Notes: generated from the letters alone by a model not told the origin. A stretch of DNA of 64,000 bases from Nitrospirota bacterium (GCA_030684575.1 JAUXVD010000011.1:1-64000); one strand, 5' to 3'; counted from the first letter of the stretch, positions 11,155 through 19,909 are shown. Made by a program: numbers and translations.

Positions 11155-11490
11155 CTATTTCTTGACCCAGCCGCCTGCGCCCTCAATGAAATTACCGGAA
11201 CTCGTATTCTGAACTGCCTTCTCCCCTGCCAGGATTTCCACCGCAGTCACGCTGGTTCCATTACGGCGGGCAATTTCCTCATAGGCCTGACGCCGTTTCT
11301 GATTCACGTCGGTCATGAGAGCTTGCGCCTCACCGCTGCCTGGCGAAACAAGGCCCAAGTACCCATTTGATTTTTCTCCGACCAGGCCCTTCGCCTTCGC
11401 GTCGTCAAGCGTAAGGGCTAACAACGGCTGCACTGCCACAAGACACCACAACATTGTGCCGACCGTGATCACTCGTTTCCACATTGTCAT
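11155..11490 (-). CDS. ydbL: YdbL family (DUF1318) periplasmic protein
   Basis: 111 residues from ATG at 11490, just after GGAGGAGGG; upstream frame to 11541 lacks a ribosome site. A signal peptide ending near LLALTLDDAK is followed by the DUF1318 core: AKAKGLVGEKSNGYLGLV, VNQKRRQAYEEIARRNGTS and VEILAGEKA. In Escherichia coli YdbL accompanies the YdbH-YnbE inter-membrane bridge. The gene order ydbH-ynbE-ydbL is conserved here, which makes the assignment firm despite the small size. Confidence 0.88.
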   Translation of the reverse strand: MTMWKRVITVGTMLWCLVAVQPLLALTLDDAKAKGLVGEKSNGYLGLVSPGSGEAQALMTDVNQKRRQAYEEIARRNGTSVTAVEILAGEKAVQNTSSGNFIEGAGGWVKK

Positions 11491-11584
11491 CGCCCTCCTC
11501 CTCTGCCTAACAGGTGCCTGAGAAACCATGCAAATATTCATGAGCTATCCCGTCTTGGAAAACAGAGCACTACCGTGCAGGATG

Positions 11585-11815
11585 CTAAAATAGACCGCTC
11601 TTGTCGGACAACACCTGGTCTAACTCTTTGTCCACTTTCACGCGAATCTCATGATCGATCTTTACGTTCAAATTGATGGTAATCGGCTTATCCGACGGCG
11701 CCACTTCGATACGTGGCGTGCAGGCTACCGAGGCAACCAATGTCCAACCGGCCACCATTCCGATTGCGATCGTCAACATCGTCCTGCTCTGCATGGTCAT
11801 CCTCATGGAATTCAT
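11585..11815 (-). CDS. ynbE: YnbE-like outer-membrane lipoprotein
   Basis: 76 residues. The lipobox VASVAC is followed directly by TPRIEVAPSDKPITINLN and VKIDHEIRVKVDKELD, closely resembling E. coli YnbE. Its start overlaps the ydbH stop by four bases (ATGA). An alternative start is the ATG at 11794, which has AGGA five bases ahead and would give a more usual short signal peptide. YnbE subunits stack as beta-strands on the C-terminal end of YdbH at the outer membrane and complete a lipid conduit. Confidence 0.88.
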   Translation of the reverse strand: MNSMRMTMQSRTMLTIAIGMVAGWTLVASVACTPRIEVAPSDKPITINLNVKIDHEIRVKVDKELDQVLSDKSGLF

Positions 11816-14601
11816 GGCCGTTTGAGTTTCTTCTGAACCGTGTCTTGAATATCCTGGGTCAGGCGAAGACTGTTCATGAGGGTCGGAATGTGCTCCTGCA
11901 CCGTCAGATTGAAATGGATAGGAGGGCTCTTGGCGAGGTCCGGATTCCTCCCCTCGAGCCGTGCACTCAAATCCAACATTCCAGTCTCCGCATACTCTAC
12001 ACCAACTCGCAGCCGCGTGTAGTGAAAGTTATTGAGAGCCTGCGAAACCAGGGATAGCGGGCTGTCGGACTCCGAAATGATTTTCGATGACTCAGGAGTC
12101 GACAGATACCGTATCACCCCGCCCGGAGGCTGCGCCTCAACCACCCCACCTTCGATGACTACACCATCAGGGGTGATCGTGAGAGGCAGCGTCCCGTTCA
12201 ACGTTCCTGTGCCCAGGAGTCCCTTCTGCTGTTCCACGCTGAGGATCTTGGCCAAGTCGAGGCTGCGTAACGAAAAAGTCGACTGATAGGAACGCTTGGC
12301 CAGATCGACCAGCAGCCCAGGGCTCGTAACCGACCCCCCGAACACATCACATTGGAAGTCCTTCACGTCGATGACCGGCAGTCCGTTCGGCAGCCTCCAC
12401 TTTACCTGGAACAGGGTGGAGAGGTTCGTCACCTCGACTCCCGTCTGCAGGGAGGCGATCGTCACCGGCACCGGTTGCACCGTCGCAATCGATTCAAACC
12501 CATCAGCGCGCAACGCCATCGTCGCACTGACCCCCTTCACGCTATAGTCTCGATAATGACCGGATAGCTTGTCGGCCACGATCTTCGCCGTCCCCGATGT
12601 CACCTGAAACCCCTGTACCGAATCTCCGAGACCACCAGACCAAGACGCATCGAAGGTCGCCGTCAGTTGGCCATCTATCACATCCGTAGACAGAGGTAAG
12701 CCCATCAGCAACTTGCTCAACCGCCGTTCAGCTGCATCGAAGCCCATCGGCCCGATTGTTCCATGCAACACCCCTTTCGCTTGGCTCAAGGGTTGCTCAA
12801 TCTTGGCGGTGATCAGCCCCTCCCGGGCGAGCGCGTCGACGCGAAGGTCGGCTTTAATCCCCGCTTGGTCTGCCGAAAATCTGACCTTCCAATCGGTCGA
12901 TGGCAGTCCCCAAGGAGCAAGATCCACCGCCAATCCGTTCACTGCGAGGACACCCTGGGCATTCCAGGCCGTCCCGGTCGTCTCGGCCTGCTGAACCCGT
13001 AAGATTCCCTCAGCCATGCGAACACGCCTGCCCATGACGCGGAGACCTGGAGCCCGGATCTCCACCGTTGCTAGCCCCGCCGTACAATGAGTCGCTGCGA
13101 TATCGCACTGTACGGTGAGGGCCTCGTCAAGTTGCAGCGTCACGCTTGAGGCCACTACCGCCTCCTGCTCGATCTGCTTGACTATCACGGAGGACGACGG
13201 CAAGAGGATGCCCTTCACGTGGGTGCGAGCCAGCGTCACCGTTCCTCGAAACCCTCCCGTCGCCTCCCTGGCCGAGAGAAGGTCCGTCACCGCCTTCGGA
13301 AGAACACCCTCGACTCGAAACGTCCCCTCTGCCAACACCAGCTCGCCACCGACCCCCTCAGCCCGACTCGTCTCGAATTCTGCCACCAACGGCCCCGGTG
13401 TCAGGCCATAGGTCACATGCAATGGCCCCTCAGCGGTCACGCGCACCGGACTGTCCGCCCAATACAACTTTCCCTGAACCGGCTTAGTGCTATCAATCCG
13501 CAACGGCTGATCCCCGCGCGGGAGCATCATGCGGATCGCTTCTGGAATAATCTTGGGTTGCGCATTCACCGTCGCAGTCAATAACACGCCGGGCTCCAAC
13601 GTCCAGCCCACCTCTGTCGCCGTCCCGGTGAAGGTGCCCTCATAGGCCACCGCAATGTCCTTCGCGATCCCCTTCAGGCCCGGCAGCGTGACATTCACTT
13701 GGACCTGTCCATCCAGCTGCGTACGCGAGTCCTCCTGCAACGACTCCAATGTCGCATCAGCCGCCGCAGTCCCGGCCCAACGTACCGCGACCTGCCCCGT
13801 CACCCGCCCCAACTCCGGCCCAATCGGAATGAGTAGGGCGATAAACGGTGCCAGCTCACGCACGTTCACCTCCAGCCGCCCATTGACCTGAATCTTCGAG
13901 CCTTCCGGATGCGCCTGCGATTGCCATGAAATAATTGGCTCCGCCTGAGGCCGTTGAGACGCCAGGGTGGCTGACCAGGTACTGGCCGAGTGCCCCGTTA
14001 CCGTCAATCCGTAGGTCGCCGTGTCACGCCCCTGAAACGACAGATGCCCTCCCAGCTCGCCATCCCGATACATCACGACACCAGAAATCGTGACCCGTCG
14101 GAGAGGTCCCGTCGCCTGTTCGCGAAAAATGGTCACATGATCCAGATGCAACTCCTCAAAGGGGAGAATAGGCAGGCCTCGTAACAGATCGCCGGCGGTC
14201 AACAGGGTCCAGGGCGAGTCTTCACTCTCCACTCGACCGTGAACGGCGCCTCCTTCCTCGCCCAGTCCAGACGGCGGAAGATTCAGGATCTGGATGGCCA
14301 CATAGGGAAGAGACACCCGATCGACATGCCCATGGATAAGCTGCGGCACCCGATACTGAATCTCCGCATTCGTCAACGACACCATGACGCTTTCACCGGC
14401 CAATTCCTGTTGGAACGACACGACGGGAATGTGCATCCCACTCCAGCCGGGATAACCCAGCTGGATGATGACGTGTTTGTAGCCATACTGGCGAAGTCCC
14501 TGAGCCAACAGATACGATGCCGTCAACGGCAAGAGCAGATAGAGACTCACCAGTGCGACTAACCCGAGGAGCAGCGCGACCTGATATCGATGAATCAGCA
14601 T
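11812..14601 (-). CDS. ydbH: YdbH family inter-membrane phospholipid transport protein
   Basis: 929 residues from ATG at 14601 (AGGA four to five bases ahead); a TTG start at 14619 is also possible. A single N-terminal membrane anchor (~residues 7-28, LLLGLVALVSLYLLLP) is followed by a very long beta-rich AsmA/TamB-like body and a C-terminal DUF/YdbH region ending NSLRLTQDIQDTVQKKL. YdbH is partly redundant with TamB and YhdP in moving phospholipid from the inner to the outer membrane. The adjoining ynbE and ydbL genes confirm the identity. Confidence 0.88.
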   Translation of the reverse strand: MLIHRYQVALLLGLVALVSLYLLLPLTASYLLAQGLRQYGYKHVIIQLGYPGWSGMHIPVVSFQQELAGESVMVSLTNAEIQYRVPQLIHGHVDRVSLPYVAIQILNLPPSGLGEEGGAVHGRVESEDSPWTLLTAGDLLRGLPILPFEELHLDHVTIFREQATGPLRRVTISGVVMYRDGELGGHLSFQGRDTATYGLTVTGHSASTWSATLASQRPQAEPIISWQSQAHPEGSKIQVNGRLEVNVRELAPFIALLIPIGPELGRVTGQVAVRWAGTAAADATLESLQEDSRTQLDGQVQVNVTLPGLKGIAKDIAVAYEGTFTGTATEVGWTLEPGVLLTATVNAQPKIIPEAIRMMLPRGDQPLRIDSTKPVQGKLYWADSPVRVTAEGPLHVTYGLTPGPLVAEFETSRAEGVGGELVLAEGTFRVEGVLPKAVTDLLSAREATGGFRGTVTLARTHVKGILLPSSSVIVKQIEQEAVVASSVTLQLDEALTVQCDIAATHCTAGLATVEIRAPGLRVMGRRVRMAEGILRVQQAETTGTAWNAQGVLAVNGLAVDLAPWGLPSTDWKVRFSADQAGIKADLRVDALAREGLITAKIEQPLSQAKGVLHGTIGPMGFDAAERRLSKLLMGLPLSTDVIDGQLTATFDASWSGGLGDSVQGFQVTSGTAKIVADKLSGHYRDYSVKGVSATMALRADGFESIATVQPVPVTIASLQTGVEVTNLSTLFQVKWRLPNGLPVIDVKDFQCDVFGGSVTSPGLLVDLAKRSYQSTFSLRSLDLAKILSVEQQKGLLGTGTLNGTLPLTITPDGVVIEGGVVEAQPPGGVIRYLSTPESSKIISESDSPLSLVSQALNNFHYTRLRVGVEYAETGMLDLSARLEGRNPDLAKSPPIHFNLTVQEHIPTLMNSLRLTQDIQDTVQKKLKRP

Positions 14602-14735
14602 AGGTTCCTGTTCAGTCAATCAACCTTCTACGGACGGTTGTCAGATAATCACGACAGATCTGTCAAGAGCGGCAATGCCAAGGCCCAGCGTCCCCTCCCC
14701 GTCGCTTCGTCCCACCGGGTTCCTTCGGGCCACCG

Positions 14736-14765
14736 TTGACAGGCTTTCACACACGCCGGTATCTT
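14736..14765 (+). promoter_or_regulatory. sigma70-type promoter of the polysaccharide synthase locus
   Basis: TTGACA (14736-14741), an 18-base spacer and TATCTT (14760-14765). Transcription would begin near 14772, which leaves about 118 bases of untranslated leader before the ATG at 14890. The -10 overlaps a potential TTG start at 14764, arguing against that start. Confidence 0.55.
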
Positions 14766-14889
14766 GCATGAGCACCAATCCGTCTGTTCATACCCATCGA
14801 GTCACCCATTGCTCCCCACCCCATTCGTTCGCCATCTCTGCAACATCCGAGTCCCTCTGAACCAACTCACGAGACGGCTCGCACCGACC

Positions 14890-17800
14890 ATGCTCCTCGT
14901 GCTCTGCGGGCTCATCCTCGGCGTATCTCCGCCCCTCGCTTCAGTCACGCAGAGCCAGCAAGAGCGTTCAAGCGACCGATATATTCATCAGCTCGATGAT
15001 CTCTCGGCGCTCTGGAGTTTCTACAAACAGACCTACATACAACATGGCCGGGTCGTCAGTCTGGACGAACAGGGTATCACGACGTCCGAGGGGCAAGGCT
15101 ACGCCATGCTCCGTGCCGTTTGGTCGAATGATCGCACGACGTTCAATACCGTGTGGGCTTGGACGAAGCAACACCTCCAAGTCCGTGACGACAAGCTCTT
15201 CGCCTGGAAGTGGAAAGGAGTCGTCCTCGACAACAACTCGGCGACGGACGCCGATACCGACATTGCGCTCGCCCTTATTCTGGCCGCGCGGCGATTCGAT
15301 CACCCACCGTTCGAGCGGGAAGCGCTCACTATTGTCCATTCTATCTGGGACCGGGAAGTGATCCAGATCGGCTCGCGCGCCTATGTGACTGCCGGCAATT
15401 GGGCACGCGACGAGGACTACCCGACGATCCACGTCGCCTATCTTGCCCCCTATGCCTACGCAATCTTTGCCTCCATCGATTCTCACCATCCATGGGCCCA
15501 TGCGATCGAATCCAGCTATGCCATTCTGCACTGGCTCTATGATGAAGAAGCCCTGCCCGTCCCTCCGGAACTCATCTACCTAAACCGACAGACAGGCCAC
15601 TTGACCGTCCGGCATCCCGTGACCGGAGCCTCATCCTCGTTCAGCTATGACGCCTTCCCGATCTATTGGCGCATAGCGCTCGATGCCGCCTGGTTCGGAC
15701 GATCTGAAGGGGCCTTGCGGCAAAAGATGCTGGGATTCTTCCAGCGTGAATGGAAGGCCCAGGGGAAATTTGTCGACCACTATTCCCTCAAGGGCCTGCC
15801 GCTATCATCAAACGAAGGATTGCCGCTGTATTCCACCGTTCACGCCCTGGCATTCCAGGAACAGCACGACCTCGCCCGACTGCTGAGCGAAAAGAAACTC
15901 GCCCAACTCGAAGCCGCCGCACTCGCCGGGAAACGGCTCCCCTACTACTTCCATAACTGGTTGTGGTTCGGGCAGGCCCTCTCGCTGTCGCAAGTCCGCC
16001 ACTACGACGAGTTCTTGGGGTTTTTGCGACCGTTCGACGTGGTCGGGTTCTCGGCTCACTTTCCCTGGGAACTCTTTGCCGTCACCGTCATGCTCTACCT
16101 GATCGCCACGTGGCATCCGGTTCTCAAGTTCGCCTTTCTGGCTTGTGGATTGAGCCTCTGTCTCCGCTACCTCTACTGGCGGCTCTTCCACACCTTGAAC
16201 TTCATGGAATCCGGCGGCCCGTTTATCAGCATCGCGCTGTGGGCGGCAGAATTCTATGCCTTCTCCACCGTTCTGCTGCTGTTCATCCAGGTGGGGGTAG
16301 GCTGGAGACCTCAGCCTGTCCGTCCCCTTGAGCCAGCCCAAGGCTTTGCTCCCTCAGTCGACGTCTTTATTCCGATCTATTCAGAATCCTGCGAGATTCT
16401 GGAGAAGACCCTGATCGGCGCCTCCGCGATGGAACAGGCTCACAAACGGATATACGTATTAGACGACAGCCACCGAGACGAGGTCTGCCGACTGGCCGAA
16501 CGGTTCGGGGCGACCTATATCAAAGGACCCCGCCAACATGCCAAGGCGGGCAACCTGAACCATGCCCTCACGCAAACGGACGGCGAACTCATCGTGATCT
16601 TCGACACGGACCATATTCCCGTATCGACCTTTCTCACAGAGACCGTCCCGTTTTTTGCAGACCCCAACATCGGCTTTGTGCAAACGCCTCACCATTTCTA
16701 CAACCAGGATATTTTTCAACGGGCCCTCGGCGCCAGCCCGCGCATTCCCAACGAGCAGGACCTGTTCAATCACGCGATTCAGGGCGGACGCCAAGGCTGG
16801 GGCGGGGCATTCTTCGTCGGCAGCGGGGCCGTCTTTCGGCGGTCGGCGATCGCTGAGTTGAATGGATTTAACTTGATGAGCATCACCGAAGACATTCATA
16901 CCAGCCAGCACCTCCATGCCAGGGGATGGAAATCTGTCTTCGTCGATAAAAACTTGGCGGTCGGGCTGACGGCGGAAAACCTCGCATCGTATATTGTTCA
17001 GCGACGGCGCTGGATGTTGGGCTGTCTCCAGATTTTCTTCAAAGACAACCCACTCCTCTGCCGGGGGCTGTCGCTCCGGCACCGGCTCGGGTACTTCGCC
17101 TCGCTCTACTACTTCTTCTTCCCGATCGCGCGGGTGATATTTTGGATCACCCCCCTCTACTTCCTCCTGTTTCACCTGCACCCGATTTTTGCCGATGTCT
17201 CGATCCTGGTGGCCTACCTGCTGCCATTCATGATCGTCCTCCCGATGATTTCCTCCAGATTGCTGCCCGGATGGCCCAGGCTCATGTGGTCGTCCCTCTA
17301 CGAAGGACCGGTCAGTTTCCCGCTGTTCCGGTCGATGTTCGATCTGCTGCTCCCGAAAAACTTGGGGTTCAAAGTCACCCCCAAGGGCCTGCTCTCGGAG
17401 CAACGGTCGTTCGACTGGCGATCCTCTGCCAGCCTGGCCATTGCCACCCTCATCACGCTCGCCGCAATTGCGAAAGGCCTCTGGGAGTTCTGGTATTTCG
17501 GCATCGAAAAGGACGCCTATTTCTTCAATCTCAGCTGGGCCTCCTTCAATCTGCTGACCCTGATCGTGGGACTGCTGATGGCTTGGGAAAAACCTCAAAC
17601 GCGAACAGAAGAACGCATCATCAAACCGATCCCGTTCGAACTGCAAGCTGGCAATCTGTCCATCACAGGCACGACACACGACGTGAGTCTGACCGGGGTA
17701 TCATGGTTCGGCATATCGCCCGGTCCGCTACCTCCGACCATGGACATGAGCTTGCACGGAAGAATCCCCTTCACCTGCCAGGTCCGATTGGTCTATCATG

Positions 17801-18267
17801 ACCGACTGTCAGGGCCTGGCACAAAATGTGGGCTGACGTTTCACAACCTCTCAGAAGAACATCGTCGACGCTTGCTGCTGAACCTCTATAGCGATCCCGC
17901 GACATGGGAGCATGCGCAGAGAGACCGCCTGCGCAGCAGCCTCCTCATGGCAGGTCACTTGCTTATCGGTCTACTGAAGCACTTCAGACCATTAAGACTC
18001 AGGCGGCGGCAGAGACCCCGACAATGGCGACTGAGGATGGTTCAGGTTCAGATTGGAGAGAGCGAGTACCGCATGATCGTGCGCGATGAATCGGCGAGTG
18101 GCCTCGGTCTGCTGATGTACAACAGAAAGATTCCACTCACCACGCCGTGGCTGGTACGGAACAGCAGCGGGCAGCGGACAGCCTATCGACCCATCTACCG
18201 CTCCAGGATCTGGGGCCTGATCTCGCAGGTGGGTCTCAGTGCCGCCCCCACGACGTCACACCTCTAG
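14890..18267 (+). CDS. fusion: GH8 endoglucanase (BcsZ-like) - cellulose-synthase-like GT2 - two PilZ domains
   Basis: 1125 residues. Residues 1-20 are a signal/anchor. Residues ~30-375 are a glycoside hydrolase family 8 domain like BcsZ: TSEGQGYAM with catalytic Glu at 67, DNNSATDADTD (114-124), and YPTIHVAYLAPY. Membrane spans follow at ~393-470. The synthase core carries every processive GT2 motif: DDS (525-527), DTD (572-574), TED (666-668), QRRRW (704-708). Several spans follow (~735-900). PilZ-1 has RTEER (905-909) and DVSLTG (931-936); PilZ-2 has RQWRLR and DESASG (1066-1071). So c-di-GMP should activate it. Start: ATG at 14890 is the only ATG, but has a weak ribosome site; the open frame reaches 14764. 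In BcsA the segment after the substrate site is FFCGS; here it is FFVGSGAVF. The polymer is likely cellulose or a related beta-glucan. Confidence 0.88.
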   Translation: MLLVLCGLILGVSPPLASVTQSQQERSSDRYIHQLDDLSALWSFYKQTYIQHGRVVSLDEQGITTSEGQGYAMLRAVWSNDRTTFNTVWAWTKQHLQVRDDKLFAWKWKGVVLDNNSATDADTDIALALILAARRFDHPPFEREALTIVHSIWDREVIQIGSRAYVTAGNWARDEDYPTIHVAYLAPYAYAIFASIDSHHPWAHAIESSYAILHWLYDEEALPVPPELIYLNRQTGHLTVRHPVTGASSSFSYDAFPIYWRIALDAAWFGRSEGALRQKMLGFFQREWKAQGKFVDHYSLKGLPLSSNEGLPLYSTVHALAFQEQHDLARLLSEKKLAQLEAAALAGKRLPYYFHNWLWFGQALSLSQVRHYDEFLGFLRPFDVVGFSAHFPWELFAVTVMLYLIATWHPVLKFAFLACGLSLCLRYLYWRLFHTLNFMESGGPFISIALWAAEFYAFSTVLLLFIQVGVGWRPQPVRPLEPAQGFAPSVDVFIPIYSESCEILEKTLIGASAMEQAHKRIYVLDDSHRDEVCRLAERFGATYIKGPRQHAKAGNLNHALTQTDGELIVIFDTDHIPVSTFLTETVPFFADPNIGFVQTPHHFYNQDIFQRALGASPRIPNEQDLFNHAIQGGRQGWGGAFFVGSGAVFRRSAIAELNGFNLMSITEDIHTSQHLHARGWKSVFVDKNLAVGLTAENLASYIVQRRRWMLGCLQIFFKDNPLLCRGLSLRHRLGYFASLYYFFFPIARVIFWITPLYFLLFHLHPIFADVSILVAYLLPFMIVLPMISSRLLPGWPRLMWSSLYEGPVSFPLFRSMFDLLLPKNLGFKVTPKGLLSEQRSFDWRSSASLAIATLITLAAIAKGLWEFWYFGIEKDAYFFNLSWASFNLLTLIVGLLMAWEKPQTRTEERIIKPIPFELQAGNLSITGTTHDVSLTGVSWFGISPGPLPPTMDMSLHGRIPFTCQVRLVYHDRLSGPGTKCGLTFHNLSEEHRRRLLLNLYSDPATWEHAQRDRLRSSLLMAGHLLIGLLKHFRPLRLRRRQRPRQWRLRMVQVQIGESEYRMIVRDESASGLGLLMYNRKIPLTTPWLVRNSSGQRTAYRPIYRSRIWGLISQVGLSAAPTTSHL

Positions 18268-18322: not shown

Positions 18323-19909
18323 ATGCGATTACGCCCCCTGACCATACTCAGTTTCACGTTATTGATGGTGACCGGACTCGGCACTGTCTCGCTCGCGGAA
18401 GACTTCACGGAAGCCTGGTATCTCTCGCGTGGACGGGCCAACATGGAGATTGAAAACTATAAAGCGGCCATCGAAGCCTATGAGAAAGTGGTAGAGCGGG
18501 CTCCCAACCACCGCGAGGCCATGCGCAACCTCGGCCTCGCCTATGAAAAACAGGGGCTCAAGGACAAAGCCATCGAGACCTTCGACCGCTACCTTGCGAA
18601 GTACGACGACGACCCGGAGATTGCCTTCGACCAGGCACAGGCCCTGGAATGGTCTCGCTATGCCTACCGAGAAAAAGACATGCTGAAGTATTTCCGCATG
18701 GGCCTGAAGCGGAAAGACGATACGACCATGCGCCTCAAATATGCGGCACACCTGGCCCAGCATAAGGAAAGCAGCCAGGACGCCATCGCACAATACCGCA
18801 CCATCCTCGACCGGCAGCCCCGTAATCCCGAAGCCCATCGGGGACTGGCAAAAGCCTATGCCTGGCTGGGGAACAACGATCTGGCCCTCTACCACGCAAA
18901 TCTGGCACGGCAGTCTGCGAGGCGGGAGCCAGGCGATTTGACCAGTCTGCGCCAGGACATGCTCAAGGGACGTGAACCGACGATCGAAGGAGTGATCGGG
19001 ATTCTTGCCCAACCGGAAAAACCGTTCGAGCTCTATGGCTTCCGGATCGGATCGCGCGGCAAAGTCGATTTGACGCCGTTTACCACCACGATCCTCGAAG
19101 TCGGCGCCGAAAACTTCTGGAGTTCCAAGGAGCAGCTCGCAGGCAGCTACGTCTCATTGGCCAATCAGGTTCGATTCAATCCGTCCAATCGTGTCGACGC
19201 GATCCTGGAATACCACGGAGCCCCCCGCGGAGACGGCCTCGCGTACAAATTCGAATATGTGTATGAAGGACAGTCCTTCTCGATCCGCCCGGGCGTGAAG
19301 CGCGAATTCAAATATGACTCATTCGCCTCGCTCGCCGGCTCCCGCAGCTCAGGCCAACTCTTGGGCCTCGCTCGCTCGACCCTGTTCTACAGCACGGTCT
19401 CCTTCGATGCGGGCTCGGTTCGCGTGGACGTCACGCCCTTCGTCGGGTGGGTGACGTCTGAGCGCTCAAGTTCGAACGACCAGGTTGGGCTCGACCTCAA
19501 GACCTCGTTACCTCTGTGGAAAACGGACCATTGGGACCTGTCGGCGGAGTATCTCTTCTACCTGACTCACTATGGAGAAAATCAGAGCGGATTTGTCCCC
19601 AGCGCGAGGGAACCCTTGCCGGGCGGATACTTCAGCCCCCAAGTGTTCGTGAATCAAATTCCACGGCTAGCGACCATCTACACGATGGAAAACAAGGATG
19701 AGTTCTCGATTGCCGCAGGCCCGGCGATTCAATACATCGACGAATCGACTAAATCGTCAGCCTTTCGGGTAGGAGGCGATGCCCATGCCTCCTACACCAA
19801 TCATCTCTCAAAGGTCTGGTTGCTGAAGCTGATGGCCGACTATACCCAGATCGCCAATATCTATACGCGCATCCAGTTCAACGGCCTCTTGGTCTATACC
19901 TTCAACTAA
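18323..19909 (+). CDS. TPR plus outer-membrane barrel protein, BcsC-like exporter candidate
   Basis: 528 residues, 55 bases after the synthase gene and on the same strand. Residues 1-25 are a signal peptide. TPR repeats run from ~30 to 205 (for example AIEAYEKVVERAPNHREAMR and AIAQYRTILDRQPRNPEAHR). From ~235 to the end the pattern is alternating amphipathic strands with many aromatic residues, finishing in NGLLVYTFN, as expected of an outer-membrane beta-barrel. This is the BcsC/PgaA/AlgK-AlgE plan, but half the length of BcsC because the TPR part is short. Role as the outer-membrane polysaccharide port is inferred from architecture and position. Confidence 0.75.
   Translation: MRLRPLTILSFTLLMVTGLGTVSLAEDFTEAWYLSRGRANMEIENYKAAIEAYEKVVERAPNHREAMRNLGLAYEKQGLKDKAIETFDRYLAKYDDDPEIAFDQAQALEWSRYAYREKDMLKYFRMGLKRKDDTTMRLKYAAHLAQHKESSQDAIAQYRTILDRQPRNPEAHRGLAKAYAWLGNNDLALYHANLARQSARREPGDLTSLRQDMLKGREPTIEGVIGILAQPEKPFELYGFRIGSRGKVDLTPFTTTILEVGAENFWSSKEQLAGSYVSLANQVRFNPSNRVDAILEYHGAPRGDGLAYKFEYVYEGQSFSIRPGVKREFKYDSFASLAGSRSSGQLLGLARSTLFYSTVSFDAGSVRVDVTPFVGWVTSERSSSNDQVGLDLKTSLPLWKTDHWDLSAEYLFYLTHYGENQSGFVPSAREPLPGGYFSPQVFVNQIPRLATIYTMENKDEFSIAAGPAIQYIDESTKSSAFRVGGDAHASYTNHLSKVWLLKLMADYTQIANIYTRIQFNGLLVYTFN

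Follow-up and report, generated by a model that had tools for sequence, protein, structure and literature searches.

A GH8 cellulase joined to a BcsA-type synthase with two PilZ-type sites, and its BcsC-like partner gene, in Nitrospira and a few distant relatives

Canonical BcsA carries four transmembrane (TM) helices ahead of its glycosyltransferase (GT) domain and has a cytosolic N-terminus, and the release of its gating loop by cyclic di-GMP (c-di-GMP) is well established. The literature likewise describes the N-terminal domain of BcsA as cytosolic and shows that, in Escherichia coli, BcsC is held by BcsB and the hydrolytic activity of BcsZ is required for cellulose secretion, where it is thought to clear stalled or stray chain (PMC11379886). 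The passages of PMC7112194 that deal with Bcs fusions describe BcsAB and BcsZC and do not mention a hydrolase-synthase fusion. A BcsB-less synthase working together with an endoglucanase is represented by cyanobacterial XcsABC and by plant CesA-KORRIGAN (PMC12430437). The locus considered here lies in a 64,000-nucleotide stretch of DNA from a Nitrospirota bacterium (GCA_030684575.1 JAUXVD010000011.1:1-64000, hereafter the window), in which an earlier note, made from the sequence alone, had claimed that one polypeptide joins a cellulase, a cellulose synthase and two PilZ domains. Our analysis confirmed this polypeptide as a genuine, conserved protein of Nitrospira and a few distant relatives, and it is accompanied by a gene for a short BcsC-like export pore.

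One polypeptide with cellulase, synthase and PilZ domains

A single open frame at 14890-18267 on the + strand (the strand of all features of this operon given below), 1125 codons in length, holds the whole fusion protein intact, in the order signal peptide, GH8, three TM helices, BcsA-type GT2 core, PilZ and a divergent second PilZ. Pfam matches for GH8, GT2/Cellulose_synt and PilZ bore out the claimed domain content, with the qualification that the C-terminal PilZ gave no match of its own, and the residue positions that the earlier note had assigned to TSEGQGYAM, SATDAD, DDS, DTD, TED and QRRRW were all correct. The same architecture was recovered repeatedly in other genomes, and independent assemblies gave 21 distinct intact frames in all, among them one on the complete isolate chromosome of N. 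moscoviensis NSP M-1 (L049, 65% identity). The frame is broken in two Nitrospira metagenome-assembled genomes (MAGs), at L027:8596-12093 and L033:7281-10368, either as a pseudogene or through assembly error.

An export signal is predicted at 14857..14943, with putative cleavage, and ordinary signal peptides precede the GH8 domain in the orthologues (for example, VALCIGVSSSAVA before TPSS). The start codon is uncertain: CTG at 14857 would provide a charged n-region, LNQLTRR, ATG at 14890 was the choice of the earlier note, and a third candidate, TTG at 14764, falls inside a promoter-like site upstream of the operon (TTGACA-18-TATCTT, 14736..14765) that is weakly suggested by a consensus scan.

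The GH8 endoglucanase domain (residues 37-375, 14998..16014) was delineated from Pfam, alignment to Clostridium thermocellum CelA (1cem), invariance and structural matching. Pfam Glyco_hydro_8 matched residues 42-290 with an E value of 1.5e-32 (113.5 bits against a curated cut-off of 24), the BcsZ model PRK11097 matched the N-terminal part of the fusion in an NCBIfam search, and the PDB sequence matches over residues 36-321 were CMCax/BcsZ and CelA. The general acid E67 and the base D254 align with E95 and D278 of CelA, and both of these residues, together with D120 and D122, are invariant in 21/21 fusions. The GH8 part of the predicted model matched GH8 structures with Z scores of 24-26. The domain would act as a cellulase and may hydrolyze the product of its own synthase, the "self-trimming" that had been proposed.

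Downstream of this domain are three TM helices (residues 384-468, 16039..16293), equivalent to TM2-TM4 of BcsA by hydropathy, the predicted model and alignment to Rhodobacter BcsA (4p00/4hg6). These are followed by the GT2 synthase domain (residues 485-720, 16342..17049) and by the C-terminal TM helices (residues 729-898, 17074..17583; alignment, conservation and predicted model), which include the gating-loop motif FKVTPK at 827-832. The Pfam GT2 and Cellulose_synt models cover residues 488-787, PDB sequence matches over 409-961 were the BcsA proteins of E. coli and Rhodobacter, and the predicted model matched BcsA structures with Z scores of 30-45. None of the 21 fusions departs from the motifs D525 D526, D572TD574, T666ED668 and QxxRW (Q704RRRW708) or from the gating loop F827xVTxK832; where E. 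coli BcsA reads FFCGS, the fusion reads FFVGS.

Both hydropathy and the predicted model placed only three helices before the GT domain, whereas canonical BcsA has four and a cytosolic N-terminus, and most of the phylum's BcsB-linked BcsA proteins have at least four. Aligned by structure, the model matches Rhodobacter BcsA from residue 35/36 of that chain on, past TM1; TM1 is absent from the fusion, and GH8 occupies its place. To draw on UDP-glucose the GT domain has to lie in the cytosol, and with three helices the N-terminus would then be outside, which should place GH8 on the periplasmic side where the channel opens. The earlier note's conditional idea of a hydrolase in the periplasm, coupled to the pore exit, finds support in the sequence, its conservation and the predicted membrane topology and structure. 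By a hydropathy scan, a rough method that often fuses neighbouring helices, more helical sequence precedes the GT domain in the phylum's BcsB-linked BcsA proteins (L081-L085) than in the tandem-PilZ, BcsB-less synthases, which begin directly at the equivalent of TM2. Two of the latter, L094:985-3990 and L095:539-3580 (genomes G237 and G323), carry at the N-terminus a signal sequence and a TPR domain, positioned where the fusion has GH8, and would represent another type of N-out fusion. We infer that this class is built on an N-out synthase, to which periplasmic modules were added more than once.

The first PilZ domain, PilZ1 (residues 901-1000, 17590..17889), contains R905xxxR909 and D931xSxxG936 and was matched by Pfam PilZ over residues 903-996 with an E value of 2.1e-10; its motif is present in 21/21 fusions, one of which has D931E. 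PilZ2 (residues 1036-1118, 17995..18243) contains R1040xxxR1044 and D1066xSxxG1071 and is otherwise fast-evolving, and Pfam PilZ did not match it when it was searched on its own. The second site was nevertheless backed by three lines of evidence. A six-strand barrel with a strand order like that of PilZ1 was predicted for it. In an hhalign profile comparison, it matched the Pfam-recognized second PilZ of paralogues (E 1.8e-5, probability 78%), which in turn matched PilZ1 (E 1.6e-8). Finally, only five of its 83 positions are invariant among the 21 fusions (R1040, R1044, S1068, G1071 and G1115), and four of these five belong to the RxxxR/DxSxxG c-di-GMP signature (hypergeometric p 1.3e-5); when nine non-fused paralogues were added (n=30), R1040, R1044, S1068 and G1071 were the sole invariant residues. 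Position 1066 is Asp in 20/21 fusions and Asn in the remaining one. The invariance of the motif ruled out PilZ2 as a mere tail, despite the silence of Pfam. On these residues, both PilZ sites are likely able to bind c-di-GMP, and if both do so the synthase would be doubly gated, as had been suggested.

Most of the examined Nitrospirota synthases that are non-fused and lack BcsB also carry tandem PilZ domains, which are therefore not tied to the fusion. The window genome encodes a second, non-fused BcsA-like synthase of this kind, with two PilZ domains and no BcsB (contig C21; G000:C21:167401-169437, L025:9347-11632). The protein encoded after it (L025:11679-12500) has a weak BcsS match (E 0.021).

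Partner gene, distribution and BcsB

The partner gene (18323..19909) begins 55 bases downstream of the fusion gene, the two forming a two-gene operon, and encodes a signal peptide, approximately 5-6 TPRs (Pfam) and a 16-strand outer-membrane barrel. The Pfam BCSC_C profile scored 22 bits on this protein, just under its cut-off of 23.5. An AlphaFold2 model with a mean confidence (pLDDT) of 80 showed 12 helices and exactly 16 strands, and its top PDB matches were E. coli BcsC (9b8a, E 1.1e-15; 6tzk, Z 23.8 over 314 residues at 3.6 Å), with PelB and PgaA ranking after it. As judged from the model, the partner is a short BcsC-like export pore. It was present in 13/13 of the fusion genomes among 101 relatives and in 0/88 of the others, apart from one weak TPR-only match, and it accompanies the fusion even where the neighbourhood differs (L029).

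The fusion protein itself was found in these 13 of the 101 related genomes, some copies being fragmented, and in additional genomes of the phylum, including one from a different family of the class (G208). Two more copies came from MAGs of other phyla, KSB1 (L052, 61%) and Myxococcaceae (L056, 55%), which derive from one sample. Fusion and BcsC-like partner lie side by side in both (L052:862-5897 and L056:805-6352), and the myxococcal partner is larger, with more TPRs (706 amino acids). A binning error is disfavoured by the uniform G+C content along each contig (0.50 and 0.70, against 0.58 in the window). A neighbouring gene on L052 contains a SQNHPNPFNP stretch that resembles type IX sorting signals, and L056 carries a Ser/Thr kinase gene; other host genomes for the two copies are plausible. 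This distribution suggests that the fusion-partner pair has been transferred between phyla. L064 and L062, relatives matched over a long span, were rejected as fusions, having separate bcsA and GH8 genes.

All fused copies form one clade in the tree of the synthase core and in the GH8 tree, with support of 100 in both, which is consistent with one fusion event that spread afterwards; the fused GH8 and the phylum's stand-alone BcsZ belong to separate clades. The ratios of nonsynonymous to synonymous substitution (dN/dS) against four orthologues were 0.05-0.09 for the TM and GT region, 0.11-0.14 for GH8, 0.20-0.31 for PilZ1 and 0.31-0.44 for the linker with PilZ2, so that every domain is under purifying selection by this measure. 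Together with the invariant active sites, the low ratios argue that hydrolase and synthase are both maintained by selection.

No recognizable BcsB accompanies the fusion. A BcsB family profile matched nothing in the 101 related genomes, nor in six additional genomes with the fusion, one of which is the complete genome of N. moscoviensis; the controls for the profile were positive (the E. coli and B. subtilis control genomes and 20 Nitrospirota genomes). A BcsB hidden elsewhere in the genome is thereby disfavoured, leaving room for a very distant one. The fused copy is the only GH8 detected in the fusion genomes. Across 296 Nitrospirota genomes, stand-alone GH8 occurs in 19, of which 17 also have BcsB, and fused GH8 occurs in 11, none with BcsB above the cut-off (Fisher p 1.4e-6, a value inflated by shared ancestry). 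In G208, a sub-threshold BcsB match (E 3.8e-4) lies at a locus apart from the fusion.

Proposed mechanism and alternatives

We propose, at a probability of roughly 0.65, that the two genes constitute a BcsB-less, c-di-GMP-controlled system that secretes a cellulose-like beta-1,4-glucan and is equipped with a tethered trimming cellulase. The cytosolic GT2 domain would polymerize the beta-glucan from UDP-glucose and drive the chain through the membrane helices, with c-di-GMP on PilZ1 releasing the gating loop as in BcsA and PilZ2 serving as a second c-di-GMP site that may tune dose or assembly. GH8, anchored in the periplasm beside the channel exit, would trim stalled or stray chain in its cleft, and the tether would fix cellulase and synthase there at 1:1. 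The chain would then leave through the short TPR-barrel pore, which the fusion is predicted to contact directly in the absence of BcsB, perhaps through GH8. As to the origin of this arrangement, about evenly balanced in our judgement is the proposal that loss of TM1 turned the N-terminus outward and so allowed periplasmic modules (GH8, or TPR in L094 and L095) to be placed at the exit of a self-contained, BcsB-independent machine, in which two c-di-GMP sites set synthesis and in which synthesis and trimming are geometrically coupled within one polypeptide.

Several observations weigh against this proposal. Confidence in the predicted model is low around the base D254 (residues 247-255, pLDDT <50). 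An unrelated cellulase can substitute for BcsZ in E. coli (PMC11379886), and thus tethering is not needed there. TIGR03030 (bacterial CelA/BcsA, NCBIfam) spans residues 393-1024 at 506.5 bits, below its equivalog cut-off of 699, and in the GT tree the core falls outside the BcsB-linked BcsA clade; the polymer may therefore be something other than cellulose. Because the fused genomes form nearly one clade, shared descent confounds the contrast in BcsB. Lastly, two of the MAGs (G008 and G024) have a broken fusion frame.

Among the alternatives, the fused GH8 might be mainly a structural stand-in for BcsB that holds the exit and guides the chain, with hydrolysis being secondary. BcsB is indeed missing wherever GH8 is fused, and alignment of the model sets GH8 beside the channel exit. 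We consider this explanation unlikely, however, because invariance of E67, D254 and D120/D122 in all 21 fusions would be needless for a pure scaffold, and because related non-fused synthases, that of the window genome included, lack BcsB even though they carry no GH8.

Equally doubtful is another beta-glucan, mixed-linkage or modified, as the product, with GH8 acting as a lichenase-like processing enzyme. The placement of the GT core and the FFVGS sequence would fit such a product, as would the fact that GH8 includes beta-1,3-1,4-glucanases, one of which (5xd0) ties for the best structural match to the GH8 part. On the other hand, the GH8 proteins of solved structure that come nearest in sequence are from cellulose producers (CMCax/BcsZ; 1wzz, 6vc5), and the nearest synthase structures are cellulose synthases.

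Slightly less probable again is a precursor cleaved between GH8 and TM2, which would free a BcsZ-like cellulase from the synthase, so that the fusion would only secure expression at 1:1. A free cellulase suffices in E. coli (PMC11379886), and linker residues 370-379 are modelled at pLDDT <50; yet YDEFLGFLRPFD (residues 372-383), around and after this linker, is among the well conserved parts of the protein, unlike a disposable linker, and the N-terminal TPR domain in the same position in L094 and L095 suggests that the tethering of periplasmic domains forms a pattern. An error of sequencing or assembly that merged two adjacent genes can be rejected, even though bcsA and bcsZ are near neighbours in canonical operons, since it is contradicted by the 21 intact frames, that of the complete N. 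moscoviensis genome among them, and by the lack of TM1 between GH8 and the synthase.

Neighbouring genes and comparison with known systems

Divergent from the synthase operon is a ydbH-ynbE-ydbL-like cluster at 11155-14619 on the - strand, which encodes a YdbH-like intermembrane lipid transport protein (11812-14619, Pfam E 1.7e-73), a small lipoprotein-like open reading frame (11585-11815) and a DUF1318/YdbL protein (11155-11541). The YdbH gene adjoins the synthase operon in several relatives too.

It is an old question why bacteria that make cellulose should need a cellulase; recent work answers that they require the activity rather than the protein, probably to clear stalled chain (PMC11379886). 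The proposed two-gene system would allow the roles of tether, cutting and BcsB to be teased apart, and it offers a compact natural design for a glucan synthase controlled by c-di-GMP and in chain length. Nitrospira are nitrite oxidizers of central importance to nitrification in soil and wastewater, and they live in flocs and biofilms. Our findings point to a polymer, and to a c-di-GMP control, that may bind these flocs. A literature search that covered few subscription journals returned no GH8-BcsA fusion and no cellulose-type system in Nitrospira; the fusion is apparently undescribed, and protein-family databases may list the domain pair without comment.

The earlier note had contrasted the locus with operons in which BcsZ, BcsA and BcsB are separate proteins and BcsA has one PilZ. 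The merger of BcsZ with BcsA is indeed unusual, but other Bcs fusions are known and tandem PilZ domains are common in non-fused Nitrospirota synthases. The novelty of the locus relative to the known operons lies in the lack of BcsB, the loss of TM1 and a BcsC-like partner of its own. With BcsA-BcsB of Rhodobacter sphaeroides and E. coli, the fusion shares the GT2 motifs, the C-terminal helices, the FxVTxK gating loop and the RxxxR and DxSxxG motifs of PilZ1; it differs in having no TM1 (and hence a predicted outward N-terminus), GH8 in front, a second PilZ, no BcsB in the genome and a distinct GT clade. The fused GH8 has the fold, the catalytic pair, the predicted export and the pairing with a synthase of BcsZ/CMCax, which is a free periplasmic protein and not, as here, the N-terminal domain of the synthase. 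BcsAB and BcsZC, as presented in the passages cited above, likewise fuse neighbouring proteins of the cellulose operon, but they join synthase to BcsB or hydrolase to pore. In XcsABC and CesA-KORRIGAN the endoglucanase is separate and the export partners differ. The partner resembles BcsC, as well as PgaA and PelB, in having TPRs followed by a 16-strand barrel; BcsC has 19 TPRs, far more than the partner, in which even the BCSC_C profile stays just below its cut-off. Thus, folds and chemistry are as in Bcs, and it is the wiring that differs.

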